Assembly (NCBI RefSeq): GCF_900155985.1
Contig: NZ_FTMA01000001.1
Location: 1,488,001-1,552,000 of the forward strand
Origin: Maribacter ulvicola
Lineage (GTDB): Bacteria; Bacteroidota; Bacteroidia; Flavobacteriales; Flavobacteriaceae
DNA: 64,000 nt
Direction of reading: 5' to 3'
Position 1 is the stretch's first letter; each line of letters starts with the position of its first letter. The notes below the pieces were generated by a model. That model ran no database searches and had not been told where the DNA came from. It saw only the letters and a list, made by a program, of their open reading frames with translations. Of this stretch, positions 11,994-32,253 are shown piece by piece. Made by a program: the position numbers and the translations under genes.

Positions 11994-12035
11994 TTAAACT
12001 GAGATGAATAAATGATGTAAAAACTTAAAAAAAGA

Positions 12036-12074
12036 GACAGCCTGTAACACTTTGGCGAGCTAAAACAGACTGTC
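12036..12074 (+). promoter_or_regulatory. leader hairpin upstream of SusC
   Basis: GACAG-C-CTGT (12036-12045) can pair with ACAG-A-CTGTC (12065-12074) around a 19-base loop, giving 9 pairs with one mismatch. It lies in the 132-bp gap between FecR and SusC and is not followed by a T-run, so it is more likely an mRNA-stabilising or translational element than a terminator. Confidence 0.4.
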
Positions 12075-12125
12075 ATGTATTCAACAATTATTATTAATAA
12101 CAACCATTAAATATTATGTAAAATT

Positions 12126-15419: not shown

Positions 15420-15436
15420 AAAAAAATAGTTTCAAA

Positions 15437-17194
15437 ATGAAAAATAAACTCATCATAACAACCTTGTTCCTAGCTGCTTTTTTAACATGGAGCTGTACGG
15501 ATCTAGAAGAAGAATTATTGGACGAATCATTAACCGGTGCCCAGGCAGAAGTTATTAGCGGGGCAATTGCACCTGCATATGGCTATATTTCTTGGACGTG
15601 GAGGCATACCAATTATTATGGTTTACAATTAATACCATCAGATGAAGCTACATTGCCTTATCGTGGTGGTACAGATTGGTTTGATGGCGGTAAGTTTTTG
15701 GCGGCACATAGTCATAATTTTACACCAACAAATGACTTGATTTCCAGTGGGTGGAACGAGCTTACCACTAATATTTCAAGAACATTGGCGGCAATTGAAG
15801 TATTGACACCTTTAGCGGATGAAGGAGATGCCCAAGCTGCGGGCGCTTTGTATGAAATGAAAGCCTTAAGAGCGTATTTGAATATGTTATTGTTAGATAG
15901 CTGGGGAATTGTACTAAAGAAAGAATCATCAGAAGAACTTTCTGAAGTATTAAGAACGCAAGAGGCTATTGATTACATTGAAGCCGAATTGTTATCTGTA
16001 GTAGATGTTATCAATGATGATAAAGGTCCGGGTAGAATTACACAGTCTGCCGTATATGGATTTCTTGCAAGACTGAACCTGAACGCTGCTGTGTATCGCG
16101 ATCCCTACGGAACTCCTAATTTTACACAGGCAGATATGGATCAGGTAATTTCATATACCAATAGCATTATTAATTCTGGAAACTTCTCATTATCACCTGA
16201 ATATTTTGAATTGTTCAATGATGAAAACAACTCAAATCCTGAATTGATTTTTGCTCTAGATCAACGTGGCGTATTAACAAGAGAGCATAGCCGTTGGGCA
16301 TATTGGTCTATTGCCGGATCTATGTTTCCAAGGCCAGAATGGCCAAGCGCCGATGGTACTGACGGGCCAGCGGTTACTTCAGATTTTTATCAAACATGGG
16401 TAGATGCCTACGGAGATGTGGATCCTGCAGAAGCAGATGCCCGTTTTTATCAAAGAAACACCCTTGTGCCAGCTGCTCAATTAAAAGATTTAGAAGGACG
16501 AGAGAAATTATTGGAAACCGAAACAGAAGATAGTTTTTACTGTGTTAAAGATGTTGATTTTGAAATGGATAGAGGTATCCTTCGTGGAATTCAATGGGGC
16601 CCTCGCAAAGGTGATGATGGTCAGTTTTTAACTTGTGATGATGGTACGGTCAAAATATTGCCGATAAAGCAAATAAAAGGGAACGGTCCTGCAAGAGATA
16701 TAGGTTATGTAGATCATACCTTAGAAGTTGATTTTTCCAATGAAGGTTCATTACATAATACAGGCTATAGAGCGTCTAAATATCAATTTAGCCATACCTC
16801 GCCAAACGGGAACGGTAACAGTAGTGTTGATCTGGTATTGATGAGATTAGCGGAAATCTACCTAATGAGGGCAGAAGCCAAATTAAGAAATGGTGATAAC
16901 GCAGGTGCTTTGGTAGATGTAAATACGGTAAGAACATCAAGAACGGCGCGCCCTGATCAAACTCCGGCTCCATTAACAGCTGTAGACGCTGATATTGTAT
17001 TTCGTGAACGTGGATTTGAATTGTATTGGGAAGGTTTTAGAAGAGGAGATCAAATCCGTTTTGGAAAGTATGAAGATACTTGGACAGACAAAACCGATAC
17101 GGATGTGGACCATAGATTATTTCCAATACCACAAAGTGCTGTTGATGGTGCTTCAGGTATAGATGGTTTCTTAGAACAGAACCAAGGGTACTAA
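15437..17194 (+). CDS. RagB/SusD family outer-membrane lipoprotein
   Basis: A 585-residue surface lipoprotein with lipobox TWSC (Cys20). It has the TPR-like SusD fold: LYEMKALRAYLNMLLLDSWG (about 140-160), a C-terminal LRLAEIYLMRAEAKLRNG (about 460-480) and VFRERGFELYWEGFRRGDQIRFG. SusD proteins lid the SusC barrel and bind the ligand. It pairs with the SusC gene 17 bp upstream, and a strong terminator follows the stop, so it ends the sigma/FecR/SusC/SusD transcription unit. Confidence 0.94.
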   Translation: MKNKLIITTLFLAAFLTWSCTDLEEELLDESLTGAQAEVISGAIAPAYGYISWTWRHTNYYGLQLIPSDEATLPYRGGTDWFDGGKFLAAHSHNFTPTNDLISSGWNELTTNISRTLAAIEVLTPLADEGDAQAAGALYEMKALRAYLNMLLLDSWGIVLKKESSEELSEVLRTQEAIDYIEAELLSVVDVINDDKGPGRITQSAVYGFLARLNLNAAVYRDPYGTPNFTQADMDQVISYTNSIINSGNFSLSPEYFELFNDENNSNPELIFALDQRGVLTREHSRWAYWSIAGSMFPRPEWPSADGTDGPAVTSDFYQTWVDAYGDVDPAEADARFYQRNTLVPAAQLKDLEGREKLLETETEDSFYCVKDVDFEMDRGILRGIQWGPRKGDDGQFLTCDDGTVKILPIKQIKGNGPARDIGYVDHTLEVDFSNEGSLHNTGYRASKYQFSHTSPNGNGNSSVDLVLMRLAEIYLMRAEAKLRNGDNAGALVDVNTVRTSRTARPDQTPAPLTAVDADIVFRERGFELYWEGFRRGDQIRFGKYEDTWTDKTDTDVDHRLFPIPQSAVDGASGIDGFLEQNQGY

Positions 17195-17721: not shown

Positions 17722-17722
17722 G
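17689..17722 (+). promoter_or_regulatory. nested inverted repeat at the start of the DUF5690 gene
   Basis: Outer arms CCTAATA (17689-17695) and TATTAGG (17716-17722) enclose an inner perfect palindrome, TTTACTA-T-TAGTAAA (17697-17711). The right arm ends on the first base of the GTG start. It could be an operator, or an RNA hairpin that hides the start codon. Confidence 0.5.
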
Positions 17723-19014
17723 TGTTTAAAGTTTCTAAAATAAATATGTTGGTACTTCTAAATGGAGCTTTAGCTTCATTTGGTCTCTATTTTTGTATGT
17801 ATGCTTTTAGAAAACCTTTTTCCGTAGCCACTTTTGATGGTGAAATGGTATATGGTATAGACTATAAGATACTTCTTATTCTAGCTCAAGTTATTGGTTA
17901 TATGCTATCTAAATTTGGCGGTATTAGGATAGTTTCAGGTTTAAAAGCCCAGAATAGAGTTGCGTATTTAACCACTATGATCTTATTCGCAGAGTTGACG
18001 CTCATTTTATTTGGACTACTGCCTAAACCTTATAATTTCATCCTCTTTTTCTTTAATGGACTTTCTTTAGGAATGATTTGGGGAATTACATTCTCTTACC
18101 TGGAGGGTAGAAAAATGACCGAAATACTAGGTATCATCTTGTGTTCAAGCTTTATAGTATCTAGCGGAGCCGTAAAATCTGTTGGGTTATGGTTAATGAA
18201 AACGTATACCATTTCAGAATTTTGGATGCCCGCCGCAACAGGTGCTGTGTTTTTACTGCCATTTTTTATCTGTCTCTATTTTTTAAAAAAGCTACCAGCT
18301 CCTACAGCAGAAGATATACAACTTAGAAAAAAAAGAAAACCCATGTGCGCAGCGGACAGAAAGCAAGTCTTAAAACGATTTTCATTTCCTATGCTAATTT
18401 TGGTGGTGTTTTATACGGCACTAACTGCTTTACGGGATTTTAGGGATAATTTCTCCAGAGAGTTGTGGGATAGTGTGGGATTCTCGGGAGATGCTTCTAT
18501 TTATACCCTGTCAGAACTCCCTATTGCAATTTTAGTACTCTTAATATTAGGCTTGTTTGGTGTGGTAAAAGGTAATTTTAAAGCATTTATAGGTTTTCAT
18601 TACCTCTTAATTTTAGCAAGTATGCTCATAGGTGTTTCTACATTTTTGTTTCAACAAGGTGTCTTATCTCCTGTATATTGGATGATACTTATAGGTTTTG
18701 GTCTCTATGCCTGCTATGTACCTTTTAATTGCATATTTTTTGATAGAATGATAGCTGCTTTTAAGATTGAAGGTAATGCCGGTTATCTCATTTATATAGC
18801 AGATTCCTTTGGTTACCTTGGTAGTATGGCGGTATTGCTCTACAAGAATTTTGGACAATCAAATAGCTCTTGGCTCCAGTTTTTTATGGGCTCAATATAT
18901 TGCATTGCTTTTTTAGGGGTAGGTATTTCTATGATATCAATGGTATATTTTCAAAAGAAATATAAAACCCAGAATTCTAATATAGATTTTAAAATACCGA
19001 TAGTAAATGGCTGA
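17722..19014 (+). CDS. DUF5690 family MFS-like inner-membrane transporter
   Basis: A 430-residue protein with about 12 hydrophobic segments and a cytoplasmic central loop (about 190-220, rich in Lys and Arg). It matches the DUF5690 group related to major facilitator transporters. Helix 1 contains YAFRKPF (Arg30, Lys31) and helix 7 contains ALRDFRDNF (Arg238, Arg241). These positions recall Arg45 and Arg269 of the glycerol-3-phosphate antiporter GlpT, which bind the phosphate group. The next gene overlaps by 8 bp and belongs to phosphonate catabolism, so import of an aminoethylphosphonate is a fair inference. GTG 17722 is the chosen start; ATG 17746 is an alternative. Confidence 0.8.
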   Translation: MFKVSKINMLVLLNGALASFGLYFCMYAFRKPFSVATFDGEMVYGIDYKILLILAQVIGYMLSKFGGIRIVSGLKAQNRVAYLTTMILFAELTLILFGLLPKPYNFILFFFNGLSLGMIWGITFSYLEGRKMTEILGIILCSSFIVSSGAVKSVGLWLMKTYTISEFWMPAATGAVFLLPFFICLYFLKKLPAPTAEDIQLRKKRKPMCAADRKQVLKRFSFPMLILVVFYTALTALRDFRDNFSRELWDSVGFSGDASIYTLSELPIAILVLLILGLFGVVKGNFKAFIGFHYLLILASMLIGVSTFLFQQGVLSPVYWMILIGFGLYACYVPFNCIFFDRMIAAFKIEGNAGYLIYIADSFGYLGSMAVLLYKNFGQSNSSWLQFFMGSIYCIAFLGVGISMISMVYFQKKYKTQNSNIDFKIPIVNG

Positions 19015-20164
19015 TTTAGATTATGATGTAGTAGTAGTAGGTGGAGGTGTGTTGGGAACCTTTCATGCCTATCATGCTATGAAAAAAGGACTTAGAGTTG
19101 CACTGTTAGAACAGGATAACATGCCTAAGAGTGCAACTGTTCGCAATTTTGGACAAGTAGTGCCTTCAGGTATGAATACCAAATGGCAAGAGTACGGTCG
19201 TAAAAGCTTGAAAACATACAAGAAAATACACGCTAAATTTGATATTACGGTACGGCAAGAAGGTTCTATTTATTTAGCAAGTGATGATGAAGAAGTTCAG
19301 TTAATTGAAGAGTTACGCGAAATCAATCGCGCCAATGATTATACTTCAATATTGTTTACAAAGTCAGAATGTCTTAGTAAATACCCAGGACTAAATGAGA
19401 AATATGTAAAAGCAGGTTTATTTTTTCCTGAAGAAATTACCGTTGAGCCACGAACTATGATCGGGCGCATGCATAAATACTTGAAGAAGAAAGGAGTTAG
19501 TATCTTTTACAGGGCAAAAGTTATTGAGTGTAATGCGCTAAGTAATCAAGTTAGTACGCAGTTAGCTAATGGTAGAATGTTATTATCATCAAAAGTGATC
19601 ATCTGTAACGGTAATGATTTTAAAACATTATATCCGCAATTGTTTGCAATGAGTGATCTAGAGATTTCTAAGCTGCAAATGATGAAAACAAAACCACAGG
19701 GTAATTATAAGATTAGTGGGTCAATTTTAACAGGGCTCTCCATTAGGCGTTATGAAGCATTTGCCGAGTGTCCGTCCTACTTAAAAATAAAATCCAGAGA
19801 ACCGCTGGATAGCCTTGAAAAGAAATGGGGTGTGCATATTTTATTTAAGCAGGCTATGGATGGTGGTGTAATACTGGGCGACTCTCATGAATATGCAGCT
19901 GCCGAAAATATAGATGACTTAGGTTTTGATCTCAATATGGAGATTGATAACCTGATGATCGACAAAGCAAAAGAGATATTTCAATTACCAACTTATGAGA
20001 TCGATCAACGCTGGTTTGGTATGTACTCCCAATGTAAAAATTCAGATATTTTTGAAAAAACTATAGATGAGAATATTCATATTGTCACTGGTATTGGTGG
20101 TAAAGGTATGACAGGTAGTGCAGGTTTTGCAAAACATAATATAAATCAACTTTTTAACATTTAA
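19007..20164 (+). CDS. phosphonate-associated FAD-dependent oxidoreductase (TIGR03364-like)
   Basis: A 385-residue DadA-like flavoprotein. The N-terminal dinucleotide fold is clear (DVVVVGGGVLGTFHAYHAMK, about 6-25) and the C-terminal FAD contact is HIVTGIGGKGMTGS (about 362-375). The length, NFGQVVPSGM near residue 46 and the neighbours fit the group of FAD oxidoreductases found beside phosphonatase genes; members of this group are reported to oxidise N-methylated 2-aminoethylphosphonate to phosphonoacetaldehyde. Start ATG 19007 overlaps the transporter gene, and the HAD hydrolase starts 2 bp after its stop, so the three proteins are made together. The substrate here is inferred from family and context. 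Confidence 0.82.
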   Translation: MADLDYDVVVVGGGVLGTFHAYHAMKKGLRVALLEQDNMPKSATVRNFGQVVPSGMNTKWQEYGRKSLKTYKKIHAKFDITVRQEGSIYLASDDEEVQLIEELREINRANDYTSILFTKSECLSKYPGLNEKYVKAGLFFPEEITVEPRTMIGRMHKYLKKKGVSIFYRAKVIECNALSNQVSTQLANGRMLLSSKVIICNGNDFKTLYPQLFAMSDLEISKLQMMKTKPQGNYKISGSILTGLSIRRYEAFAECPSYLKIKSREPLDSLEKKWGVHILFKQAMDGGVILGDSHEYAAAENIDDLGFDLNMEIDNLMIDKAKEIFQLPTYEIDQRWFGMYSQCKNSDIFEKTIDENIHIVTGIGGKGMTGSAGFAKHNINQLFNI

Positions 20165-20165
20165 C

Positions 20166-20849
20166 ATGCATACAATTAAATTAGCCGTATTTGATATGGC
20201 AGGTACGGTTGTCAACGAGGACAATGTCGTGTATAAAACACTCCAAAAAGCCATTAATGAACGTGGGTTTCAAGTAAGCCTAGATTTTGTTTTAGAACAT
20301 GGTGCCGGTAAAGAGAAACATCAAGCAATTAAGGATATCATAGCTGCCGATATTGGTACTGTAGATGCGGCTATGCCAGCTTCTATTTTCAAGGATTTTA
20401 AAAAACTATTGATTACAGCCTATAATGACCTAAAGGTTACTAGTTATGATGGAGTAGCGGAATTGCTGTATACTTTAAGGAATAAGGGGATTAAAGTAGC
20501 CCTCAATACCGGTTATGATACTAGCACCGCTCAATTGTTGCTTGATAAAATGAATTGGAATGTGGGAAAAGAATATGATGTGCTTGTTACGGCAGATGAT
20601 GTTGTTCTGGGTAGGCCCAATCCAGATATGATCGTGGAAGCTATGAGGAAATTAAATGTGCAACAACAGGAGTTTGTATTAAAAGCAGGGGATTCTATCA
20701 TTGATATTGAAGAGGGGAAAAATGCCAATTGCGGTGTAACTATAGGTGTTACAACAGGTGCGCATACCCGTGAACAATTGTTGAGCGCTCACCCTACATA
20801 TGTATTAGATAGTTTGACCGGTTTAATGGACTTAATTACCTATGGTTAA
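20166..20849 (+). CDS. phosphonatase-like HAD hydrolase (TIGR03351-like)
   Basis: A 227-residue HAD-superfamily enzyme. Motif I is FDMAGTVV with nucleophile Asp10. The cap contains HGAGKEKH (residues 45-52), which lines up with the G-x-x-K-x-x-H pattern around Lys53 of Bacillus cereus phosphonoacetaldehyde hydrolase PhnX, so Lys49 could form the Schiff base. Motif II is ALNTGYD, motif III includes GRPNPDM, and motif IV is KAGDSIIDIEEG. The expected reaction is phosphonoacetaldehyde to acetaldehyde and phosphate. It is shorter than PhnX (about 267 residues). The last gene of the transporter/FAD/HAD operon. Confidence 0.82.
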   Translation: MHTIKLAVFDMAGTVVNEDNVVYKTLQKAINERGFQVSLDFVLEHGAGKEKHQAIKDIIAADIGTVDAAMPASIFKDFKKLLITAYNDLKVTSYDGVAELLYTLRNKGIKVALNTGYDTSTAQLLLDKMNWNVGKEYDVLVTADDVVLGRPNPDMIVEAMRKLNVQQQEFVLKAGDSIIDIEEGKNANCGVTIGVTTGAHTREQLLSAHPTYVLDSLTGLMDLITYG

Positions 20850-20893
20850 TTGTATAAATAAAATTAGCTAAATATTTTTGAAATCATAAGCTA

Positions 20894-20931
20894 TTGAGAA
20901 CCATAGGTATTCCTAAGGTTCTCGATATTTT
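20894..20931. terminator. terminator between convergent genes
   Basis: GAGAACC (20896-20902) pairs with GGTTCTC (20917-20923) and TAGG (20904-20907) with CCTA (20912-20915) around a 4-base loop, with one A-A mismatch. T-rich sequence follows on the plus side. It lies between the stops of the HAD hydrolase and the XRE-cupin regulator. Confidence 0.7.
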
Positions 20932-20940
20932 ATTTAAGAA

Positions 20941-21507
20941 CTAAATAAAGAAGTACAATACCAGCATGGTAGCTGTGCTATTACTTCTATTTTCGGGTAC
21001 ATGGGCAATTCTGCCATCAAAGAAAATAGAATCTCCTTCCTTGATAAGAACTTCTTCTTCTCCTATAAGGTAGTAGCATTCTCCAGAAAGCATATATTTA
21101 AATTCATAAGCATCCGTTATTACTTTCTCTCTTTTAGAGTTTGGGTGCACGTGAAGTAAAACTGCTTCAAAACCAATACTGTTCAGTTGCTTTCCGAAAA
21201 TATAGGAATATGAAAACCCAACGGCATCATCTTCTTTTTCAATCAATGTATTGTCCTCTTTTCGCGAAACTATAAAGTTAACTCCGTTAGATTGTGGTAG
21301 TCCGCCAAAGAAATCCGTTACCTCCACATCCAAAGAACTTATAATTTTTAAAAGAACGGGCAAGGAAGGTATTGTTCTTCCGTTTTCTATTCTAGAGATA
21401 AGCCCAGATGTTACTCCGGCTCGCATGGCAATTTCACTAATTGTCAATTTTCCGTTTTTACGAATCTCTTTAATCCGTTTTCCTATTCCAATAAGGTAAT
21501 CATCCAT
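20941..21507 (-). CDS. XRE family regulator with C-terminal cupin sensor
   Basis: A 188-residue regulator. An N-terminal helix-turn-helix (about 8-62, IGKRIKEIRKNG, then ISEIAMRAGVTSGLISRIENG) is joined to a cupin domain (about 110-185, LHVHPNSKRE, FKYMLSGECYYLIGEEEVLIKEGDSIFFDG). Such proteins sense small ligands and repress or activate adjacent catabolic operons. It sits between the two halves of the phosphonate locus and is transcribed away from the second SusCD operon. The 258-bp divergent region holds a tandem palindrome that is a good candidate operator. TATGTTTG (minus strand, 21532-21525) fits a -7 box. Confidence 0.9.
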   Translation of the reverse strand: MDDYLIGIGKRIKEIRKNGKLTISEIAMRAGVTSGLISRIENGRTIPSLPVLLKIISSLDVEVTDFFGGLPQSNGVNFIVSRKEDNTLIEKEDDAVGFSYSYIFGKQLNSIGFEAVLLHVHPNSKREKVITDAYEFKYMLSGECYYLIGEEEVLIKEGDSIFFDGRIAHVPENRSNSTATMLVLYFFI

Positions 21508-21619
21508 TCATACGTGTTCTCCTACAAACATAATGAAAAATAAAATTTATTGGATTATAGTTTATTGAGCTGCGCTGAACATTGATTTTCACGGGACTTA
21601 ACATAAAACTTACGTTTTG

Positions 21620-21627
21620 CATATTTG
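21620..21627 (+). promoter_or_regulatory. possible -7 element of the second SusC operon
   Basis: CATATTTG resembles TAnnTTTG; the same octamer lies upstream of the phosphatase fusion at 8381-8388. No clear -33 TTG is found at the usual distance, so this is a tentative call. GATATTTG at 21721-21728 is an alternative nearer the gene. Confidence 0.35.
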
Positions 21628-21636
21628 TAAATAATA

Positions 21637-21658
21637 TTTAGCTAACTTTTAGCTAACT
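21637..21658. promoter_or_regulatory. tandem 11-bp repeat, candidate operator
   Basis: TTTAGCTAACT occurs twice without a gap (21637-21647 and 21648-21658). Each copy contains the perfect palindrome TTAGCTAA (21638-21645 and 21649-21656), with centres 11 bp apart, about one helical turn. It lies in the divergent region between the XRE-cupin regulator and SusC, just downstream of a -7-like sequence, where a bound repressor would block transcription. Confidence 0.6.
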
Positions 21659-21765
21659 TTTCACTTATAATGGTTGCAATTGCTTAATATTTATAAGTAG
21701 ATTCATTCAGTTTTCATTTAGATATTTGCCAAACTAACAAACAAAAGTTTACAAATACGAATAAA

Positions 21766-24700
21766 ATGAAAAGAACATTACTTATTACAATGGTTGCTGT
21801 TTTGGCAAGTTTTGTAGCACATTCCCAATCTGTTTTTACAGGGGTCGTGTTAGATGAAAACCAAGTTCCACTGCCCGGCGCAACCGTAGTAGTGAAAGGA
21901 ACAACGAACGGAGTTGCCACAGATTTTGATGGTAATTTTAAAATTGAATTAAAAAATTCAAACGAGATTTTAGTGATATCTTATATAGGATACATTAAAC
22001 AAGAATTTGAAACAGCCAATAAGCGTACCGGGAGTTTTTCTTTACAACCAGATTCACAGCAATTAGATGAGGTTGTGGTAACGGCATTAGGTATTGAAAG
22101 GGAAAAGAAGTCTTTAGGGTATGCTTCTCAAGAGTTGGATAACGATGAGGTTGTTCAGGCGAGAGAACCAAACCTTTTGAACAGTATGTCAGGTAAAGTT
22201 GCCGGTTTGCAAATTACCAACAGCCCTACAGGGTTGGGTGGTTCTGCCCGAATTTCTATACGTGGCGATGCTTCTTTGAACATTAATGGTAACTCGCCAT
22301 TGTTTATTGTAGATGGTACACCTATTAGTAATGAAATTGTTGGCTCTAGCGGATCGGGTACGCAAAGTGTAGATTATGGTAATGGTGCTGCAGAAATAAA
22401 TCCGCAGGATATTGAATCTATTAACGTATTAAAAGGTCCGGCTGCTGCCGCACTGTACGGGTCAAGAGCTGCGAACGGTGCCATAATTATTACTACCAAG
22501 AAAGGAACATCTCAGAGTAGTAAATTGGGAGTGTCCTTCAATACTGGTATTACTATTGAAAATGTATTGATGTTGCCAGATTGGCAAAATGAATACGGTC
22601 AAGGGAACAACCAACAGTTCTCTTTTGTAGATGGAAGTGGGTCTGGTATTGCCGATGGTGTTGATGAAAGTTGGGGACCAAGATTGGATACGGGGCTTAT
22701 GATTGCGCAATTTGATTCTCCAAGAACAGACGGTACTCGTGGTGGTGATACTTTTGTAAGTGATGCCGATATAATTCCAACCCCTTGGGTATCTCAACCT
22801 GATAATACAAAAGATTTCTTTGAAACCGGTATTACCAAGACCAACAGCATCGCTATTTCTAAAAGTGGCGAAATGGGCAACATGCGTTTGTCTTTTCAGA
22901 ATTTAGATCAAGAAGGGACGTTGCCCAATACAGATCTAAGAAGAAATACTTTAAGCTTTTCTGGTACCATGAACGTATCGGATAAAGTGAAGGTAAATGC
23001 CAATATGAATTATGTAAAAACCGATAGTGATAACAGGCCTGCGGTTGGCTATGGTACTGAAAGTATTATGTATCTATTTATTTGGTATGGCCGTCAATTG
23101 AATACCAACAACCTTAGAGATTACTGGCAACCAGATTTAGAGAGTACACAGCAGTTCAACTACAACTACAATTACCATGACAACCCTTACTTTACCATGT
23201 ATGAAAATACAAATGCGCAAGATAAGGACCGTATGTTCGGTAATGTGAGCCTTACCTATGACATCAGCGAAAACTGGAAGTTATTACTACGTAGCGGGCG
23301 CGATTTCTATAGGGATTTTAGAGTTCGTAAAAGAGCTTTTAGTACACAGCGTTTTCCATTTGGAACCTACCAAGAGGATAATATTTTCTTTGAAGAAAGT
23401 AACTCTGATTTCTTATTAAGTTATGATAAGGACTTTGGTGAAAAGTTCAATTTAAATGTCTCTGCTGGTGGAAACCAATTACGTCAAAAGCAAGATTTTA
23501 CTAAAAGTGTTGCACCACAATTAATTAATCCTGGGGTGTACTCTTTTAACAATAGTAGACAGGCGGTACAGGTAAGTTCTAACAATAGCGAAAAGCGCAT
23601 CAACAGTTTATATGGGTATGCACGATTTAGTTATGACAATGTATTGTTTATGGATGTTACCGGTAGAAATGACTGGTCTAGTACATTGCCAGAAGGGAAC
23701 AACTCTTATTTCTATCCGTCGGTAACACTAAGTGGTATCGCAAGTGATATGTTCCATATGCCAGACTGGGTAACTTTTGCGAAAGTAAGGGCTGCTTATG
23801 CTGAAGTAGGTAATGATACCGATGCATATAGATTACGTAGCTTTTACCAAAATGAGACTCCGTTCGATGGTTCTACGCCAATTTTAACGGAATCTTCTTT
23901 GATACCGAATGCTGATTTGAAACCGGAGATTACGGGTTCTTATGAATTTGGTTTAGACCTGCGATTTTTACAAAGCAGAATCAATTTAGACCTTACGTAT
24001 TACGATAGTTCTACAAAAAATCAAATTATCAATATTAGTACTGATATCGCTAGTGGTTATAGCAGTCAGCTGATCAATGCCGGTGAAGTACGTAACTACG
24101 GTTTTGAGGCTATTGCGAACTTTGTTCCTGTACTTACAGATAATTTTAAATGGAGCTCTACTTTCAATTTTGCTAGTAATAAAAGTGAAGTGACCGATTT
24201 AGGCGATGATATTCAGTTTACTTTGACCGAAGCGAACGGGGCATATATTCAAGCGCGTGAAGGTGGGTCTATCAGTGCTATCTACGGTAGAGGTTTTCAA
24301 AGGGTAGAAGATGAGAACAGTGAATATTTTGGTCAAATGATCATTAACAACCAAGGTATTCCTGAGCGTACCGATGATTTGGTATACCAAGGTGATTATG
24401 CGCCAGATTTCACTCTGGGAATGCAGAATACGTTCAAGTATAAGAATATCGATTTAGGTTTCTTGATCGATACCAGACAAGGTGGTATCGTAGTTTCTAG
24501 AACAAAAACCATTGGTAGTACTTCTGGTCAACTACAGGAAACAGTAGAAGGAAGGGAAACAGGAATCGTAGCGGAAGGTGTTGTAAACACCGGTACTTCA
24601 GAGAGTCCCAATTATGTGCCAAATACCTTAAATGTAGATGCTAGGACATATAACAACAGATACTACGAAAGAGATAATGTTGAAGCGGCAAAGTATGATG

Positions 24701-24945
24701 CCTCTTACACTAAACTTCGTGAGGTTTCTTTAGGGTATTCTTTCCCACAGAAAATGATCAACCAACTTCCTATTACCAATGCAAGAATTTCTGTAACGGG
24801 TAGAAATTTGATTTTATGGACAGATAATCCGCATTTTGACCCTGAAACTGTTGGGGTATCTGGTGGCACGCTTCAACCGGGTATTGAGAATATGTCTTAC
24901 CCTAGTTCACGTTCGTTTACCTTAAATATACAGGTTAATTTCTAA
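21766..24945 (+). CDS. SusC/RagA TonB-linked outer-membrane transporter
   Basis: A 1059-residue TonB-dependent receptor. It has a signal peptide (about 1-20), a carboxypeptidase-D-like domain (about 22-95, FTGVVLDENQVPLPGATV and GVATDFDGNF), a plug (about 105-240, DEVVVTALGIEREKKSLGYA, NPQDIESINVLKGPAAAALYG) and a barrel ending in NIQVNF. Unlike the first SusC it has no STN domain, so it is not expected to signal through FecR; the adjacent XRE-cupin protein is the likely regulator. It heads an operon with SusD, phosphoesterases and PbfA, which points to uptake of a phosphonate- or phosphate-bearing ligand. Confidence 0.95.
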   Translation: MKRTLLITMVAVLASFVAHSQSVFTGVVLDENQVPLPGATVVVKGTTNGVATDFDGNFKIELKNSNEILVISYIGYIKQEFETANKRTGSFSLQPDSQQLDEVVVTALGIEREKKSLGYASQELDNDEVVQAREPNLLNSMSGKVAGLQITNSPTGLGGSARISIRGDASLNINGNSPLFIVDGTPISNEIVGSSGSGTQSVDYGNGAAEINPQDIESINVLKGPAAAALYGSRAANGAIIITTKKGTSQSSKLGVSFNTGITIENVLMLPDWQNEYGQGNNQQFSFVDGSGSGIADGVDESWGPRLDTGLMIAQFDSPRTDGTRGGDTFVSDADIIPTPWVSQPDNTKDFFETGITKTNSIAISKSGEMGNMRLSFQNLDQEGTLPNTDLRRNTLSFSGTMNVSDKVKVNANMNYVKTDSDNRPAVGYGTESIMYLFIWYGRQLNTNNLRDYWQPDLESTQQFNYNYNYHDNPYFTMYENTNAQDKDRMFGNVSLTYDISENWKLLLRSGRDFYRDFRVRKRAFSTQRFPFGTYQEDNIFFEESNSDFLLSYDKDFGEKFNLNVSAGGNQLRQKQDFTKSVAPQLINPGVYSFNNSRQAVQVSSNNSEKRINSLYGYARFSYDNVLFMDVTGRNDWSSTLPEGNNSYFYPSVTLSGIASDMFHMPDWVTFAKVRAAYAEVGNDTDAYRLRSFYQNETPFDGSTPILTESSLIPNADLKPEITGSYEFGLDLRFLQSRINLDLTYYDSSTKNQIINISTDIASGYSSQLINAGEVRNYGFEAIANFVPVLTDNFKWSSTFNFASNKSEVTDLGDDIQFTLTEANGAYIQAREGGSISAIYGRGFQRVEDENSEYFGQMIINNQGIPERTDDLVYQGDYAPDFTLGMQNTFKYKNIDLGFLIDTRQGGIVVSRTKTIGSTSGQLQETVEGRETGIVAEGVVNTGTSESPNYVPNTLNVDARTYNNRYYERDNVEAAKYDASYTKLREVSLGYSFPQKMINQLPITNARISVTGRNLILWTDNPHFDPETVGVSGGTLQPGIENMSYPSSRSFTLNIQVNF

Positions 24946-24975
24946 GAGTAGAAGAAACTATAAAATAAAGAAATC

Positions 24976-26529
24976 ATGAAAAAAATACTATTATTTATAT
25001 GTTCCTTGGTACTGGCAATTAGCTGTACCGAAGATTTTGAAACCATCAATGTCAACCCAAATTACCCTGCTTCTGCAGCTCCAGGCTTATTATTACCGGG
25101 TGTACAAAGAGAAATGGCCTACAATTGGGGCGGTCAAGGTTGGGAAGAAGGTTTTACCGTGGTGCAATATGGGGCAAGACTTCAATTTACCAGTGGAGAT
25201 ACTTATAACTGGTCTCCTTCTGGTGATCCTTATAATGACGCATATGCATCCTTACGTGATGTAGAAAATATTATTAAGGATACGGAGGCTAACGAAAATG
25301 CACAGAATTATTACGGCGTTGCCTTGGTAATGAAATCTTGGATCTATTCTTATGTTACTGATGCTTACGGAGATGTACCTTATTCTGAGGCTACCATGGG
25401 TATTGAAAATGGTAATGTAACCCCTGCTTTTGATGCACAAAGTGCTATTTATGCAGGTATTTTGGAAGATTTGGAAACTGCAAATACGGTTTTGACCAAT
25501 GCCGATAATATCTCTGGTGATATCTTTTACGATGGCGATATTGCAAAATGGAGAAAGTTTGCAAACTCGTTAAGACTTCGTCTGCTAATGAGAATCAGTG
25601 ATGTGGATAATGCAACTGCCGTTGCAGGAATGACCCAAATTACAAGTAATCCAACTGCGTATCCAATTTTTGAGAGCAATGAGGATATGGCTTTCGTGGA
25701 ATGGAATTCTGATAACCCACAACCAAAATATGAAACCCGTAGTGGTAGTTTTGATGAGGTTCGATTAAGCCAAACTTTAGAAACTCGTTTAAAAGATTTG
25801 AACGATAATAGGTTGTATGTTTTTGCACAGCCTACTACAGCTTCTGAAAAGGGAATTTTCTCTGAAGATTTTGATGATTACGTTGGTATGCCTAACGGAT
25901 TGGATGATGAGGCTGCATTAGGCTACAGTCCGTCTGGAAACCCAGATGAGTCTGGATCTAACTTCATTTCTAGGTTGGGCATATTGCTAGGTTGTAGAGC
26001 ATGTAATCCAGAAGAAGCTTCTGCTACAGCTTCGCATACCATAATCATGAGTTATTCTGAATTACAGTTTATTTTGGCGGAAGCGGCAGAAAGAGGATTT
26101 ATCTCTTCTGGTGATGCGGCAATGTATTATGAAAACGGAATTAGAGCTTCTTTTACATATTACACTGAAAGAGTTGCTGCTGGCGGATGGTCAGATATTG
26201 CGAATGCCATGCAGGCTACAGATTTAGATGGGTATGTTGCTCAGGCGGATGTTGCACTTACTGGTGCAACGGATGATAACTTGGCTAAAATTGCCCTTCA
26301 AAAATGGATCTCTCTTTTCTACACAGGTTTTGAAGGATGGTCAGATTGGAGAAGAACGGGTATGCCAGAGGTTGTTCCTGGTCCTGATGCTGTAAACGAT
26401 GGTAGGGTGCCGGTACGTTTTCAATATCCTAATGCTGTGAAATCTACGAACAACGAAAACTATAATGCCGCTGTTCAAAGTATGGGTGCAGATGATATTA
26501 ATACCAAACTTTGGTGGGATGTTGATTAA
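24976..26529 (+). CDS. SusD-like outer-membrane lipoprotein (SusD-like_2 type)
   Basis: A 517-residue surface lipoprotein with lipobox AISC (Cys17). It begins TEDFETINVNPNYPASAAPG and contains YSYVTDAYGDVPYSEA (about 119-135), KWRKFANSLRLRLLMRIS (about 192-210), SYSELQFILAEAAERG (about 356-372) and FEGWSDWRRTGMP near the C-terminus. These are marks of the second SusD family, which pairs with SusC proteins lacking an STN domain. It follows its SusC by 30 bp. The next gene starts 11 bp before its stop. Tryptophans around residues 51 and 75 could serve ligand binding. Confidence 0.93.
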   Translation: MKKILLFICSLVLAISCTEDFETINVNPNYPASAAPGLLLPGVQREMAYNWGGQGWEEGFTVVQYGARLQFTSGDTYNWSPSGDPYNDAYASLRDVENIIKDTEANENAQNYYGVALVMKSWIYSYVTDAYGDVPYSEATMGIENGNVTPAFDAQSAIYAGILEDLETANTVLTNADNISGDIFYDGDIAKWRKFANSLRLRLLMRISDVDNATAVAGMTQITSNPTAYPIFESNEDMAFVEWNSDNPQPKYETRSGSFDEVRLSQTLETRLKDLNDNRLYVFAQPTTASEKGIFSEDFDDYVGMPNGLDDEAALGYSPSGNPDESGSNFISRLGILLGCRACNPEEASATASHTIIMSYSELQFILAEAAERGFISSGDAAMYYENGIRASFTYYTERVAAGGWSDIANAMQATDLDGYVAQADVALTGATDDNLAKIALQKWISLFYTGFEGWSDWRRTGMPEVVPGPDAVNDGRVPVRFQYPNAVKSTNNENYNAAVQSMGADDINTKLWWDVD

Positions 26530-28186
26530 GCAAAAGGTTAAAAAATACACCTTAATTATTGTACTGACCATAGGGATGATCTCCCTATGGTCTTGTAATT
26601 ATGAGAGGCAAGATAAAATGGGTGCTGCAGACACCCATGTGGTAGTCATCGGTTTTGATGGTTTAAGCCCGGACGGACTCCAAAATGCACATACGCCTAC
26701 TTTTGACAAATTGATCAGCGAAGGAGCTTCAACAATGCATGCCAGGGCAGTTTTGCCTACAAGTTCCAGTACTAATTGGGCATCCATGATTATGGGGGCG
26801 GGTCCTGAACAGCATGGCATTACTTCCAATTCTTGGGAGAAAGATAATTTAGTTTTACCGGCAGTGACGCAGAGCGAACCGTTTTTATTTCCTAGTATTT
26901 TTCATTTGATACGTGAACAACGAAAATCGGAGAAAATCGGAGCCATTTATCATTGGGGCGGTTTTGGTCGGTTATTTGAAAAAAGTGCCGTTGATTTTAA
27001 CGAAAATTCGGCTACGGAAGAAGAGACTGCAGTGAGTGCTAGTAGTTATATTAAAGTGAAAAATCCGCTTTTTACCTTCATTCATTTTGATCATATAGAT
27101 CATGCAGGTCATGAATTTGGGCACGGAACAAAAGAATACTATGCCTCAGTGGAAAAAGGAGATTCGCTATTGGCGAAAGTAATGAAAGCCATTGCCGAGT
27201 CAGATTTGGCGGGTAATACCATGGTAGTTGTCAGTTCTGATCATGGCGGTACAGGTAAAGGTCATGGTGGTGAATCTTTAGATGAGGTTGAAATTCCTTT
27301 TATTCTTTGGGGTAAGGGCATTAAAAAGAACTATCAAATTAAATACCCGGTGTATCAATATGATAATGCCGCTACCGTTGCACATGCCTTAAATATTAAG
27401 ACGCCACGTGCTTGGATCGGCAAACCGGTTTTAGAAGCTTTTGAAGGGGAGAAGGTAGCAGATGATTATCCCGTTCTGGTACCATTGAAAAAACCAGAAT
27501 TACAAAATCCTGCAAAAGGTTATGCTGCTGATGGCGGATTGTATACTGATTTCGCAGAACTAATTTTAAAGAACCCGAATACAAAGGGTGAAATAAAGTA
27601 CACATTAGATGGTAGTATGCCAAAATCTGATGCTGATACCTTTAGGGCAACAAAGCTACTTAAAGAAAATACAGTGGTAAAAAGCGCTGTTTTTGTAGAT
27701 GGAAAATTAAGTAGTGCGGTTAGTGAAGCGTATTTCAGAATAAAACCAAATACACATCAAGCACCTATTTCTTATGAAGTCTTTCATTTGGATAACCTGT
27801 CGTTTATTCCATCTATCGGTAATAGAAAACCAGATGCTACAGGTGCCGTATTCGAGTTTTCATCGGAAGAAGTGCGTCAACATATTCAATCGAATACACT
27901 GTTCCGGTTTAAAAGTATACTTGAAATATCTACGGATGACAACTATAATTTTGCCACAAGATCAGATGATGGCAGTCAGTTGTTTATTGATGGTGATTTG
28001 GTGGTAGATAACGATGGTGACCACGGCGTAAGAACAAAAAATGGAAGCATTGCACTTGAAAAAGGAAATCATACCGTTGAAGTCCTTTGGTTTAATGGTG
28101 GTGGTGACGGCTGGTTAGATGTGTATGTGAAAAGTGATGAAATACCCAATCAGATTTTATCGACCAATCTTTTAAGAAAGAACTAG
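26519..28186 (+). CDS. lipoprotein alkaline-phosphatase-superfamily phosphodiesterase with PA14-like domain
   Basis: A 555-residue lipoprotein (lipobox LWSC, Cys26). I chose ATG 26519, which overlaps the SusD stop, because the signal peptide begins there. The catalytic domain (about 38-325) is of the nucleotide pyrophosphatase/phosphodiesterase type: Asp47 in GFDGLSPD, nucleophile Thr85 in SSSTNWASM, then HFDHIDHAGHEFG and SSDHGGTGKGHGG as metal ligands. A chitobiase C-terminal-like segment follows (about 355-420, IKYTLDGSMP), then a PA14-like domain (about 430-545, TRSDDGSQLFIDGDLVVDN) that may bind a sugar. It could hydrolyse a phosphodiester or a phosphonate monoester in a glycolipid. Confidence 0.85.
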   Translation: MLIKQKVKKYTLIIVLTIGMISLWSCNYERQDKMGAADTHVVVIGFDGLSPDGLQNAHTPTFDKLISEGASTMHARAVLPTSSSTNWASMIMGAGPEQHGITSNSWEKDNLVLPAVTQSEPFLFPSIFHLIREQRKSEKIGAIYHWGGFGRLFEKSAVDFNENSATEEETAVSASSYIKVKNPLFTFIHFDHIDHAGHEFGHGTKEYYASVEKGDSLLAKVMKAIAESDLAGNTMVVVSSDHGGTGKGHGGESLDEVEIPFILWGKGIKKNYQIKYPVYQYDNAATVAHALNIKTPRAWIGKPVLEAFEGEKVADDYPVLVPLKKPELQNPAKGYAADGGLYTDFAELILKNPNTKGEIKYTLDGSMPKSDADTFRATKLLKENTVVKSAVFVDGKLSSAVSEAYFRIKPNTHQAPISYEVFHLDNLSFIPSIGNRKPDATGAVFEFSSEEVRQHIQSNTLFRFKSILEISTDDNYNFATRSDDGSQLFIDGDLVVDNDGDHGVRTKNGSIALEKGNHTVEVLWFNGGGDGWLDVYVKSDEIPNQILSTNLLRKN

Positions 28187-28199
28187 AAGCATACAACAT

Positions 28200-29567
28200 A
28201 TGACCCTAATGAAGCAGGAACAAGATAGATTACAGAACAAGCGTACCGAAGGCGATATTAATCTGACGGCAGCGAGGAAAGAATGGCATGAAAGCATTAC
28301 CGATCTTAAAACTTTAAAGCTTTTGGAAAAAGATGCGCGCTACTTTTTTCACCAAGCACTATCTACACCTTGTTTAGATGTGCTTGGTAGTTGTAAAGGA
28401 GCGCATATTGAGAATATATCAGGTACAAAGTACCTAGATTTTCATGGTAACAATGTGCATCAATTGGGCTTTTCGCATCCAAAATTGGTGCAGGGCTTAA
28501 TGGAGCAATTACAAGGGTTATCTTTTTCTACACGACGATATACCAATGAACCTGCTATAAAATTTGCAGAGAAACTTACCTCTTTACTTCCTTCAGATTT
28601 AAATAGGGTTTTAATGACCCCAAATGGTAGTTCTGCAATTGGTATAGCGTTGAAATTGGCACGTGCCATTACCGGAAAATTCAAAGTAGTTTCTTTTTGG
28701 GATTCTTTTCATGGTGCTTCTTTAGATGCTATTAGCGTTGGTGGTGAAGCCGTTTTTCGTGAATATATGGGGCCTATGATGCCGGGTGTAGAACGTATTC
28801 CGCCACCGGTAACCTATCGTGGAATTTTTGAGGGCAATGAAGCCAAATGTTTAGAACATTTAGAATATGTATTTGCCAAAGAAGGCGATATTGGAGCCTT
28901 TATTGCAGAAACCGTACGAAATACCGATGTGCAATTACCTTCGATGGAATTTTGGCAAGAGGCACGTGCCTTATGCGATAAATATGGTGTGGTTCTTATT
29001 TTAGACGAAATTCCTATTGCCCTGGGTAGAACAGGGAAAATGTTCGCTTTTGAGCATTACGGTATTGAGCCTGATATTCTTTGCTTGGGCAAAGGATTGG
29101 GAGGTGGTATCTTTCCGCAAGCGGCTATTGTTACCCGCGACCGCTATAATAAATTTCCTGACATATCCTTAGGACACTATACCCATGAAAAGAGTCCGCT
29201 TGGCGCTATGGCGGCATTGACCACCTTAGAAATTCTGGAGCAGGAGAAAATCCTTCACAAAGTGGCGGGAGATTCGTTGATCATGTGCACGGCCATGACC
29301 ATTTTAAAAGAGAAGTATGAACTGGTTGGTGATGTTCGTGGTCGTGGACTATTATGGGGTATTGAATTGGTGACCGATAGGGATACAAAAGAAAAAGCAG
29401 TGCAGCAAGCCGAGAAAGTGATGTACGACTGTCTTAAAAACGGATTAAGCTTTAAGGTATCTGCCGGTAATGTACTTCAATTGGCACCTGCACTGACTAT
29501 TTCTAGAAAAGAATTAAAAGAAGCTTTACTAATTTTAGAAAATGCGCTAGATAGCGTGAATGATTAG
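28200..29567 (+). CDS. pbfA: (R)-1-hydroxy-2-aminoethylphosphonate ammonia-lyase (PbfA-like, class III PLP enzyme)
   Basis: A 455-residue fold-type I PLP enzyme of the class III aminotransferase family. Lys298 in CLGKGLGGG is the PLP lysine, Asp269-Glu270 lie in LILDEIPIALGRTGK, and FWDSFHGASLDA (166-177) stacks on the cofactor. DEIP replaces the DEVQ of ordinary class III aminotransferases. The N-terminal ESITDLKTLKLLEKDARYFF and the overall sequence resemble PbfA, which eliminates ammonia from (R)-1-hydroxy-2-aminoethylphosphonate to give phosphonoacetaldehyde. The HAD phosphonatase-like gene in the same island would take that product. No PhnW-like transaminase is visible here. The name rests on recalled similarity plus context. 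Confidence 0.8.
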   Translation: MTLMKQEQDRLQNKRTEGDINLTAARKEWHESITDLKTLKLLEKDARYFFHQALSTPCLDVLGSCKGAHIENISGTKYLDFHGNNVHQLGFSHPKLVQGLMEQLQGLSFSTRRYTNEPAIKFAEKLTSLLPSDLNRVLMTPNGSSAIGIALKLARAITGKFKVVSFWDSFHGASLDAISVGGEAVFREYMGPMMPGVERIPPPVTYRGIFEGNEAKCLEHLEYVFAKEGDIGAFIAETVRNTDVQLPSMEFWQEARALCDKYGVVLILDEIPIALGRTGKMFAFEHYGIEPDILCLGKGLGGGIFPQAAIVTRDRYNKFPDISLGHYTHEKSPLGAMAALTTLEILEQEKILHKVAGDSLIMCTAMTILKEKYELVGDVRGRGLLWGIELVTDRDTKEKAVQQAEKVMYDCLKNGLSFKVSAGNVLQLAPALTISRKELKEALLILENALDSVND

Positions 29568-29573
29568 ACACTT

Positions 29574-31160
29574 ATGAAAACAATTAAATTAAATGTGATG
29601 GTTGCCCTTTTGTGGGGAGTTGTTATGCATGCCCAAGAAAAGGCAACTTTTTTAGTTCAGCCTTATTTGCAAGATGCCAACCCTACTGAAATGACCATTA
29701 TGTGGGAGACTTCTTTGGGAGAGGAAAGTATGGTAGAATATGGTACTTCACCAAAATTAGGAAAAAGAGCAAGAGGAATTGCCTATGATATCAACTTCAA
29801 TGAATCTCGTGTTCATGAAGTGAAAATTACCGGACTGAAACGATTTACCGAGTATTACTATAAGGTGAAAACCGGTAAGTTAGTATCCAATATTTATCAA
29901 TTTAAGACACCACCGTTTGCCAGTGATAACGAGTCATTCCATCTTTTGGCGATGAGCGATATGCAAAAGGACCATCAGAATCCAGATAAATTCAGTGAAA
30001 TAGTTAATAAAGGTGTACTTCCTTTTTTAAAGTCGGAATATGGAAATGAAGTTCCTGATGATTTGGCAATGGTTTTGATTCCAGGAGATTTGGTAGAGAA
30101 CGGAGCAAAATATGAACAGTGGCAAAATGATTTCTTTGATCCAGCACAACGTCTTTTTTCTGAAGTTCCCGTGTATCCTGTATTGGGAAATCATGAGCGA
30201 AATTCTAGCTATTATTTCAAGTATTTTAGCCTGCCAAAGAATGGTACACCTGCTTATGCTGAACATTGGTGGTATAAGGATTATGGCAACACGAGAATCA
30301 TTGGGCTAAATTCTAATGAGGGTTATCGTGATAGCAGAGAACAATTTACATGGTTAAATTCGTTACTTGAAGAAACGGCAACGAATGAGGAAATCGATTT
30401 TGTATTTGCACAGCTACATCATCCGCATAAATCAGAATTATGGATTCCCGGTGAAGAGGAGACCTCTGGTAAAGTGGTGAAAATGTTAGAAGCGTTCACG
30501 ACCAAAACCGGTAAACCCAGTTTACACTTTTTTGGTCATACGCATGGGTATTCTAGAGGTCAATCTAAAGATCATAAACACTTATGGATCAATGTAGCCA
30601 CTGCCGGTGGCGCTATTGATAATTGGGGAGAATTTGAAGGCAGGGATTATGATGAATTTAGTGTAACCCAAGATGAATATGGCTTTGTAATGGTTGAGGT
30701 AGACGGTAATAAGAACAACCCAAAATTCACCATCAAAAGAATTAGCCGTGGTAATGAGCATGTGTTCAGGGAAAATGAAAAGACCGATGAAATTACTATT
30801 TATGCCAACGCGCATAAACCAGAAACTCCGCTAGTGGTTTCACCCAAAGATGAAATTGCTTTTACGGGTGGTCTTTTAATGGCACAAGCGTTCAATAGTT
30901 CATTTGATAATGCCTATCATGCAGCATCTCATTGGCAAATATCCAAAACAAAAGATTTTGGTATATTGGTGTTAGATAGCTGGAAACAGTCGGAAAACTG
31001 GTACTATTTAGAAAATCGTCAAAAAGAAGATGACTTAACTGATGAGCCTACTGGAAGATTACAACCAAATACCGATTATTTTTGGCGAGTACGTTATCGT
31101 GACCAACATTTAAATTGGAGCGATTGGTCGCAAATACAAACCTTTAAAACTAAAAACTAA
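29574..31160 (+). CDS. secreted metallophosphoesterase with N-terminal FN3-like domain
   Basis: A 528-residue protein with a signal peptide (about 1-21). Residues about 25-112 form a purple-acid-phosphatase-type fibronectin III domain (FLVQPYLQDANPTEMTIMWE). The catalytic domain (about 122-380) has Asp129 in MSDMQKD, Asp172 in GDLVENG, Asn206-His207 in GNHE, LHHPH (281-285) and His322/His324 in FGHTHG. The first motif is D-x-Q rather than D-x-H, and the GDxxY tyrosine of true purple acid phosphatases is absent. A further FN3-like stretch ends the protein (about 430-527). It should remove phosphate from an extracytoplasmic substrate. Confidence 0.87.
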   Translation: MKTIKLNVMVALLWGVVMHAQEKATFLVQPYLQDANPTEMTIMWETSLGEESMVEYGTSPKLGKRARGIAYDINFNESRVHEVKITGLKRFTEYYYKVKTGKLVSNIYQFKTPPFASDNESFHLLAMSDMQKDHQNPDKFSEIVNKGVLPFLKSEYGNEVPDDLAMVLIPGDLVENGAKYEQWQNDFFDPAQRLFSEVPVYPVLGNHERNSSYYFKYFSLPKNGTPAYAEHWWYKDYGNTRIIGLNSNEGYRDSREQFTWLNSLLEETATNEEIDFVFAQLHHPHKSELWIPGEEETSGKVVKMLEAFTTKTGKPSLHFFGHTHGYSRGQSKDHKHLWINVATAGGAIDNWGEFEGRDYDEFSVTQDEYGFVMVEVDGNKNNPKFTIKRISRGNEHVFRENEKTDEITIYANAHKPETPLVVSPKDEIAFTGGLLMAQAFNSSFDNAYHAASHWQISKTKDFGILVLDSWKQSENWYYLENRQKEDDLTDEPTGRLQPNTDYFWRVRYRDQHLNWSDWSQIQTFKTKN

Positions 31161-31167
31161 ACCACTT

Positions 31168-32253
31168 ATGAAACTACTTTTAAGAACCTTATTGTTACTA
31201 TTACTTCTAGCTTCAACCCAAGTTATAGCTCAAGAAGCTAAAAATTCAAATGTATTTTTAATTACTTTGGATGGCGTGCGTTGGCAAGACGTTTTTACGG
31301 GCGTTGATATGAATTTGTTAAATAGCGACTATACCCATAATAAAGATGAGCTAACTAAAAAGTTTGTTGGAAAATCTAAGAATGAAAATAGAAAAATGTT
31401 AATGCCTTTTTTTTGGAACACCATAGCTGAAGAAGGGCAACTGTACGGTAATAGAAATAAAGGAAGTAAAGTTAATCTCACTAATACGATGTTGTTTTCA
31501 TACCCTGGATACAATGAAATATTATCGGGTAAGGCAGACGATGCCAACATAGATAGTAACGATAAAAATTATAATGAGAATGTTACCGTTCTAGAAGTGG
31601 CAAATAAATCGGAAACTTTTAAGGATAGGGTAGCCGCATTTGCTAGCTGGGACGTATTCCCTTTCATAATTAATGATAAAAGAAGCGGTGTGCCGGTTAA
31701 TGCCGGTTATATGGATGCTGTTGGAGTTTTGAATGAAAAAGAAAAGTTTTTGAATGAGATTCAACGTCAGGCACCCATTGTTTGGGAAAGTGTTCGTTTA
31801 GATGTTTTTACACATCACTTTGCGAAAGAGTACATAAAGAAAAATCATCCGAAACTAGTGTATGTTTCTTATGGTGAAACCGATGATTTTGCACATGATG
31901 GACAATTTGATTTCTACATGAAGTCTTTGCTAAATACAGATGCATTCATTGCTGATTTATGGAACTATGTACAGAATGATGATTTTTATAAAGACAATAC
32001 TTATTTTATTATTACCACAGATCACGGTAGGGGAGAAGGTGTGCAAGAAGATTCAAAATGGACCGGTCACGGTAGCAACGTAAAAGGAGCTGAACATACT
32101 TGGATAGCAATTTTAGGGCCAAATATAGAGGCAAGTGGAGAAGCAAGCGAAGGACAATTATTTACAGATCAGATTGCACCAACAGTAGCTAAGATTTTAA
32201 ATTTGAAAATAGATAGTAGAAATATGCCTGCAAAACCCATTAGCCTCAAATAA
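31168..32253 (+). CDS. secreted alkaline-phosphatase-superfamily hydrolase
   Basis: A 361-residue protein with a signal peptide (about 1-22). Superfamily motifs are Asp35 in ITLDGVRW, a probable nucleophile Ser111 in FSYPGYNEIL, YGETDDFAHDG (about 232-242), TTDHGRGE (about 285-292) and the final His in WTGHG. It resembles sulfatase/phosphodiesterase-type members with no extra domains. It is the last gene of the second SusCD operon and starts 7 bp after the metallophosphoesterase. Whether it acts on phosphate monoesters, diesters or phosphonate esters cannot be read from the sequence. A strong terminator follows at 32331. Confidence 0.87.
   Translation: MKLLLRTLLLLLLLASTQVIAQEAKNSNVFLITLDGVRWQDVFTGVDMNLLNSDYTHNKDELTKKFVGKSKNENRKMLMPFFWNTIAEEGQLYGNRNKGSKVNLTNTMLFSYPGYNEILSGKADDANIDSNDKNYNENVTVLEVANKSETFKDRVAAFASWDVFPFIINDKRSGVPVNAGYMDAVGVLNEKEKFLNEIQRQAPIVWESVRLDVFTHHFAKEYIKKNHPKLVYVSYGETDDFAHDGQFDFYMKSLLNTDAFIADLWNYVQNDDFYKDNTYFIITTDHGRGEGVQEDSKWTGHGSNVKGAEHTWIAILGPNIEASGEASEGQLFTDQIAPTVAKILNLKIDSRNMPAKPISLK

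Follow-up and report, generated by a model that had tools for sequence, protein, structure and literature searches.

The window, a 64,000-nucleotide stretch of a Maribacter ulvicola genome (Flavobacteriaceae; 4.51 Mb, 99.96% complete), contains at positions 17722-32253 a locus in which a SusC/SusD pair is encoded together with predicted enzymes of aminophosphonate breakdown. On the plus strand, genes for a DUF5690 protein, the FAD-dependent oxidase PbfD, and a PhnX-like hydrolase precede an XRE-cupin regulator gene on the minus strand, which is followed, again on the plus strand, by genes for SusC, SusD, a phosphodiesterase (PDE), PbfA, a metallophosphoesterase, and an alkaline phosphatase (AP)-superfamily enzyme (Table 1). 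SusCD pairs are outer-membrane import systems best known for sugars. A sequence-only reading had described a SusCD-based phosphonate utilization locus here, and every gene that it named is an intact open reading frame (ORF) in the place assigned to it, matching its family by profile score. Because PbfA, PbfD (TIGR03364), and the PhnX-like protein (TIGR03351) exceed their curated cut-offs and their linkage is conserved in other genomes, we consider it probable that the locus is a Bacteroidota system for the utilization of aminophosphonates. Its proteins are 91-92% (PbfA) to as much as 97% (SusC) identical to those of Maribacter caenipelagi and M. litoralis, and no Rfam element was found at gathering thresholds in the 8-33 kb part of the window.

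Table 1. Features of the putative aminophosphonate locus and of the module upstream of it (window positions)
Feature	Position	Strand	Evidence
DUF5690 major-facilitator-fold protein, GTG start	17722..19014	+	PF18943 539 bits
PbfD-type FAD aminophosphonate oxidase (TIGR03364 / HpnW)	19007..20164	+	407 bits, cut-off 285
PhnX-like C-P hydrolase (TIGR03351), predicted	20166..20849	+	231 bits, cut-off 219; DMAGT, Schiff-base Lys
XRE-cupin regulator, divergent from SusC	20941..21507	-	HTH_3 + Cupin_2
Candidate operator GTAAATAATATTTAG, palindrome GTAAATAATATTTAC	21627..21641	unspecified	conserved in XRE-SusC intergenic regions
Conserved 14-mer AAGTTTACAAATAC, directly 5' of SusC	21745..21758	+	conserved in XRE-SusC intergenic regions
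SusC-type TonB-dependent transporter	21766..24945	+	Plug, CarbopepD_reg_2, barrel; TIGR04056 675 bits
SusD-like surface lipoprotein	24976..26529	+	SusD-like_2 PF12771 326 bits; lipobox LAISC
NPP/AP-superfamily phosphodiesterase (PDE) lipoprotein	26519..28186	+	Phosphodiest PF01663, CHB_HEX_C_1 PF13290, PA14 PF07691
PbfA	28200..29567	+	NF049939 712 bits, cut-off 525
Secreted purple-acid-phosphatase-N + metallophosphoesterase	29574..31160	+	PF16656, PF00149; signal peptide by sequence reading
Secreted AP-superfamily enzyme, PafA-like fold	31168..32253	+	Metalloenzyme PF01676
Upstream module: GDPD_2-alkaline phosphatase fusion	8469-10262	+	PF13653 + PF00245
Upstream module: sigma factor	10363-10926	+	
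Upstream module: anti-sigma	11028-11993	+	
Upstream module: SusC	12126-15419	+	
Upstream module: SusD_RagB	15437-17194	+	

Residue K298 of PbfA, within LGKGLGGG, is invariant across the PbfA alignment and, from what is known of class-III aminotransferases, is presumably the pyridoxal phosphate (PLP) lysine. The protein is 55% identical to PbfA of a strain of Vibrio splendidus, the species of the characterized enzyme, which turns (R)-1-hydroxy-2-aminoethylphosphonate (hydroxy-AEP), a constituent of an Acanthamoeba phosphonoglycan and a Bdellovibrio sphingophosphonolipid, into phosphonoacetaldehyde (PMC8154272). PbfD enzymes form the same product from 2-aminoethylphosphonate (AEP) and N-methyl-AEP; PbfD1 carries the TIGR03364 annotation, and PbfD2 of Mariniblastus fucicola, about 4-fold less efficient with AEP than with N-methyl-AEP, replaces PhnW in its host (PMC10590968). 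The sequence-only reading saw no PhnW in the locus, and this is true of the whole home genome, where TIGR02326 scores 32 bits at best and its cut-off is 401. Its further suggestion, that a locus without PhnW appears specialized for AEP with hydroxyl or N-methyl groups, is too narrow, because a characterized PbfD oxidizes AEP and stands in for PhnW; by analogy, plain AEP is likely a substrate as well, alongside N-methyl-AEP and hydroxy-AEP.

The PhnX-like protein scores 107 bits with the TIGR01422 equivalog, below the cut-off of 220, and is therefore not classed as PhnX; no HAD protein of the home genome exceeds that cut-off. When aligned with Bacillus cereus PhnX, all PhnX-like proteins of these loci keep the Asp nucleophile motif DxAGT, with Ala at its +2 position (Ser in two sequences), and the lysine that matches Schiff-base Lys53. 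The roles of the Asp nucleophile and of Lys53 are established for PhnX, and phosphatases have a second Asp where DxAGT has Ala. Conservation of these residues makes hydrolysis of the C-P bond by the PhnX-like protein likely. A search for PhnJ gave no match in the home genome, while an E. coli control scored positive, and C-P lyase was thus not recognized there. As far as sequence can tell, the pathway of the locus is complete and is the only recognized phosphonate pathway of the genome.

Linkage was surveyed in 395 Bacteroidota genomes, within a radius of 12 kb around TIGR03364 (some contigs ending early), and in 80 named PbfA loci. TIGR03364 is present in 33 of the genomes, DUF5690 in 42, and both in 30 (Fisher p = 6e-32). 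Among the 33 TIGR03364 loci, 25 have DUF5690 and 25 a PhnX-like gene within reach, and SusC and SusD are each found in 17. With 30 SusC genes above the cut-off in the 4.5 Mb of the home genome, SusC would be expected by chance in about 15-20% of such neighborhoods (binomial p = 1e-6 to 5e-5, the genomes not being independent). A near-collinear operon occurs in Maribacter, Cellulophaga, Mangrovimonas, Zobellia, Saonia, Flagellimonas/Allomuricauda, and Confluentibacter, and a rearranged version in Leeuwenhoekiella. The order in Dyadobacter is XRE, PhnX-like, PbfD, SusCD (in one case), PDE, PbfA, and DUF5690, and loci of Prolixibacteraceae and unclassified Bacteroidota combine SusCD with PbfA, mostly alongside DUF5690 and proteins of PhnX type. 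Two of the surveyed loci were confirmed to have canonical PhnX and one to have PhnW; many PbfA loci miss DUF5690 merely since the retrieved flank stops inside PbfD. All 25 gammaproteobacterial loci pair PbfA with a PhnX-type protein, and SusCD, DUF5690, and PDE are found in none of them. Absence of linkage in related genomes had been set in advance as grounds for giving up the sequence-only reading; the linkage is conserved across Flavobacteriaceae and other Bacteroidota, which supports a SusCD-based aminophosphonate locus. Separately, eight PbfA homologues with 58-64% identity, from metagenome-assembled genomes of Chitinophagaceae, Sphingobacteriales, and Mucilaginibacter, stand without partner genes nearby.

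Two of the hydrolases of the locus track other genes in it. The PDE is similar to ENPP4-type phosphodiesterases, and its Asp/His motifs, of the kind that usually bind metal, are invariant; translation more plausibly starts at the ATG at 26519, which precedes a lipobox (LWSC), than at the called ORF start of 26465. It is encoded in 7/7 TIGR03364 loci with PbfA and in 0/26 without (p = 2e-7, kinship ignored), and because its presence tracks PbfA exactly, it probably frees hydroxy-AEP from esters for PbfA. The metallophosphoesterase and the last AP-superfamily enzyme have apparent Sec-type signals. The latter is found in 13 of the 17 TIGR03364 loci with SusC and in 1 of the 16 without (p = 6e-5, kinship again ignored), and its predicted model (pLDDT 75) has PafA as best match (Z 24, 3.3 Å over 296 residues). 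Since its presence tracks SusC, the simplest reading of model and distribution would be a phosphonate/phosphate ester hydrolase acting on SusCD imports. Some relatives (locus L078, 8740-10014, and equivalents) have an extra gene of about 425 amino acids between PDE and PbfA, with the metallo-beta-lactamase-like motifs THYHDDH and LNHHGNRDS, which at the thresholds applied matched neither Pfam nor NCBIfam; in the window, the PDE gene ends at 28186 and PbfA starts at 28200, without this gene.

For DUF5690, a literature search found no paper. The predicted model (pLDDT 88) has a major-facilitator fold, and G6PT/SLC37A4 structures top both PDB rankings (Z 33, 3.2 Å over 363 residues); GlpT is among the listed matches (Z 29, 4.2 Å over 396 residues), and other major-facilitator families reach similar Z. 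In a weak alignment with GlpT, the sequence of which was verified against 1pw4, the invariant R30 of DUF5690 lies opposite GlpT R45, within a common RK.F motif, and the invariant R238 lies four residues off GlpT R269. R45 and R269 are the two phosphate-binding arginines of GlpT. A plain GlpT homologue was considered and dropped, the sequence evidence being too weak. Four of the ten DUF5690 loci without TIGR03364 are beside PhnW, PhnX, or PbfA. Because of its major-facilitator fold and its adjacency to aminophosphonate enzymes, we predict with reasonable confidence that DUF5690 is an inner-membrane aminophosphonate importer. AepP of Pseudomonas putida, a 2-AEP permease and GlpT relative (28% identity), has the same general fold, whereas DUF5690 is a Pfam family apart from AepP/GlpT with weak sequence similarity to GlpT (PMC8316502 for AepP).

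When the SusC of the window was ranked against the 395 genomes, with two candidates scored per genome, the best 7 matches (48-100% identity) were all in TIGR03364 loci, and subsequent matches (<=46% identity) were mostly outside them. Its own clade in a quick tree consists exclusively of phosphonate loci. A single "phosphonate SusC" clade was ruled out, since 5 label changes are required on the tree, no fewer than 3 of them forced by starred branches, and the SusCD pair appears to have been exchanged between loci or to have strongly diverged. The closest SusC paralogue in the home genome (46% identity) lies outside the window, at C5:553000-572900 of the home genome G000. Its neighbors encode a SusD, a Metallophos_2+CMD fusion, an ArsS-like radical-SAM/DUF3641 protein, and a protein of 445 amino acids that matches no Pfam family; similar SusCD arrangements were seen in two other loci, and this pair may have to do with the metabolism of arsenic or arsenosugars.

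The XRE-cupin protein is weakly like PuuR (44 bits against a cut-off of 211) and is the probable substrate-responsive regulator of the locus. In 19 intergenic regions between XRE and SusC, from loci that are related, the palindrome GTAAATAATATTTAC recurs at <=2 mismatches in 11 (shuffled mean 0.13) and AAGTTTACAAATAC in 14 (shuffled mean 0.63), the latter with one site only in the window. Their conservation makes the palindrome a candidate operator and AAGTTTACAAATAC a candidate regulatory site. An operator shared with the region upstream of DUF5690 was ruled out, the XRE-SusC palindrome being found there in 0/58.

A second SusCD system, of phosphorus type, at 8469-17194, outside the span of the sequence-only reading, adjoins the locus upstream. 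It is similar to the PUSII locus of Flavobacterium johnsoniae; phosphate depletion induces that locus, and its PhoA1 has pf13653, as does the phosphatase fusion here (PMC8115612). Homologues of the fusion recur near five TIGR03364 or PbfA loci. These observations are evidence for a phosphorus-related function of the entire block, upstream module included.

In the system that we propose, SusD would bind aminophosphonate esters (lipid head groups, phosphonoglycan units) or fragments, and SusC would pass them across the outer membrane. The PDE, the AP-superfamily enzyme, and the metallophosphoesterase would cut ester bonds to give AEP, N-methyl-AEP, and (R)-hydroxy-AEP, and DUF5690 would bring the aminophosphonate thus freed into the cytoplasm, perhaps exchanging it for phosphate. 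As members of their families, PbfD would oxidize AEP or N-methyl-AEP, and PbfA would remove ammonia from (R)-hydroxy-AEP, both yielding phosphonoacetaldehyde, the C-P bond of which the PhnX-like enzyme would split via a lysine Schiff base into acetaldehyde and phosphate, with the XRE-cupin protein regulating the locus according to substrate. Head groups of phosphonolipids or phosphonoglycans are a plausible source of the aminophosphonates. We put forward more tentatively, as a possibility, the selfish uptake of intact phosphonolipid or phosphonoglycan fragments, in which SusCD would import hydroxy-AEP/AEP conjugates, the PDE would be specialized in hydrolyzing hydroxy-AEP esters, and DUF5690 would represent a new aminophosphonate importer family; jointly they would make up a separate branch of the phosphonate cycle in Bacteroidota.

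Several results weigh against the aminophosphonate reading or its parts. A profile search of the PDB with DUF5690 gave no match, its sequence aligns weakly with that of GlpT (64% probability in hhalign), and 6/10 of the DUF5690 loci without TIGR03364 have no recognized phosphonate gene among the neighbors viewed, so that members of this family may differ in the type of substrate they carry. A literature search found no published assay of the TIGR03351 PhnX-like family. About half of the TIGR03364 loci are without SusC within 12 kb, and SusCD is therefore not obligatory for aminophosphonate use. Moreover, their SusCs are spread over several clades, even where gene order is identical, so that SusCD specificity is unreadable from the sequences.

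The last two points, the many loci without nearby SusC and the variation of SusC lineages among otherwise similar loci, also favor an alternative in which SusCD imports phosphate-containing polymers or phosphodiesters, as has been proposed for PUSI/PUSII, and the aminophosphonate genes form a separate cassette under common regulation that deals with free small aminophosphonates alone. So do the adjoining PUSII-like module and the pairing of SusCD with phosphatases and phosphodiesterases in PUS loci (PMC8115612). However, in near-collinear loci of many genera SusCD lies inside, between PbfD/PhnX-like and PDE/PbfA, and the PDE tracks PbfA, not SusCD, and we find this alternative doubtful. The system could instead serve mainly for nitrogen through amine release, being substrate-induced and outside the phosphate-starvation response: the regulator is distantly like the amine-responsive PuuR, PbfA and PbfD give off ammonia or methylamine, and in other bacteria AEP is a nitrogen source independently of phosphate (PMC8316502). 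Three secreted phosphoesterases and the adjoining GDPD-phosphatase SusCD module indicate phosphorus, however, which leaves a mainly nitrogenous role unlikely. That the substrates of the PbfA-like and PhnX-like proteins are not phosphonates but amines or phosphates, of phosphoethanolamine type or other, is highly improbable. Many enzymes share the class-III aminotransferase fold of PbfA and many phosphatases the HAD fold, but PbfA scores 712 bits against an equivalog cut-off of 525, DxAGT with Lys53 is a phosphonatase and not a phosphatase signature, and three phosphonate-associated families are found together.

The preferred reading, aminophosphonate utilization, has partial precedents. Flavobacterium has SusCD ("PusCD") loci that are induced by phosphate starvation and co-localized with phosphoesterases and, in some cases, phosphonate-degrading enzymes; a SusCD pair beside phosphoesterases, which defines a PUS, is present at our locus as well, and in both the phosphoesterases are secreted (PMC8115612). 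The idea that a phosphonate locus with such a SusCD layout is new thus holds only in part. The available portion of that paper names no PbfA, PbfD, PhnX-like protein, DUF5690, or XRE-cupin protein and, unlike our locus, defines no complete PhnW-less aminophosphonate pathway, and the locus possibly overlaps with some PUS locus. As in the PhnWX and PhnWYA pathways with accessory PbfA, PbfA here would supply phosphonoacetaldehyde to a C-P hydrolase, but the locus has no PhnW, its hydrolase is below the cut-off for canonical PhnX, and SusCD and DUF5690 replace the transport genes drawn there (PMC8154272). The PbfD2-PhnX system of M. fucicola likewise relies on an FAD oxidase to yield phosphonoacetaldehyde in a PhnW-less genome, whereas our locus has TIGR03351 in place of PhnX and adds PbfA, SusCD, and esterases; the FAD enzymes described with it are predominantly proteobacterial, with some PVC members (PMC10590968).

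The chemistry is largely known; what concerns transport and ester cleavage is new or no more than hinted at in the PUS work. New here are the DUF5690 importer candidate, the PDE-PbfA coupling, and the coupling of the AP-superfamily enzyme to SusCD. In the literature consulted, aminophosphonate carriers are inner-membrane ABC or GlpT-like systems, mostly of Proteobacteria, and for Bacteroidota, which are major marine polymer degraders, it holds no defined aminophosphonate system beyond a general remark in the PUS work and a single species with a homologue of AepP. The locus offers testable roles for DUF5690, for TIGR03351 as C-P hydrolase, and for a hydroxy-AEP ester hydrolase, and if the proposal is true, the substrates of SusCD would widen to phosphonate conjugates.

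Downstream, at 34472-59338 of the window, leucine-rich-repeat proteins, a giant DUF5724/DUF4132/DUF7737 protein, several large unannotated proteins, and an adenylosuccinate-synthetase-like protein are encoded in a cluster that may be of conflict or defense type.

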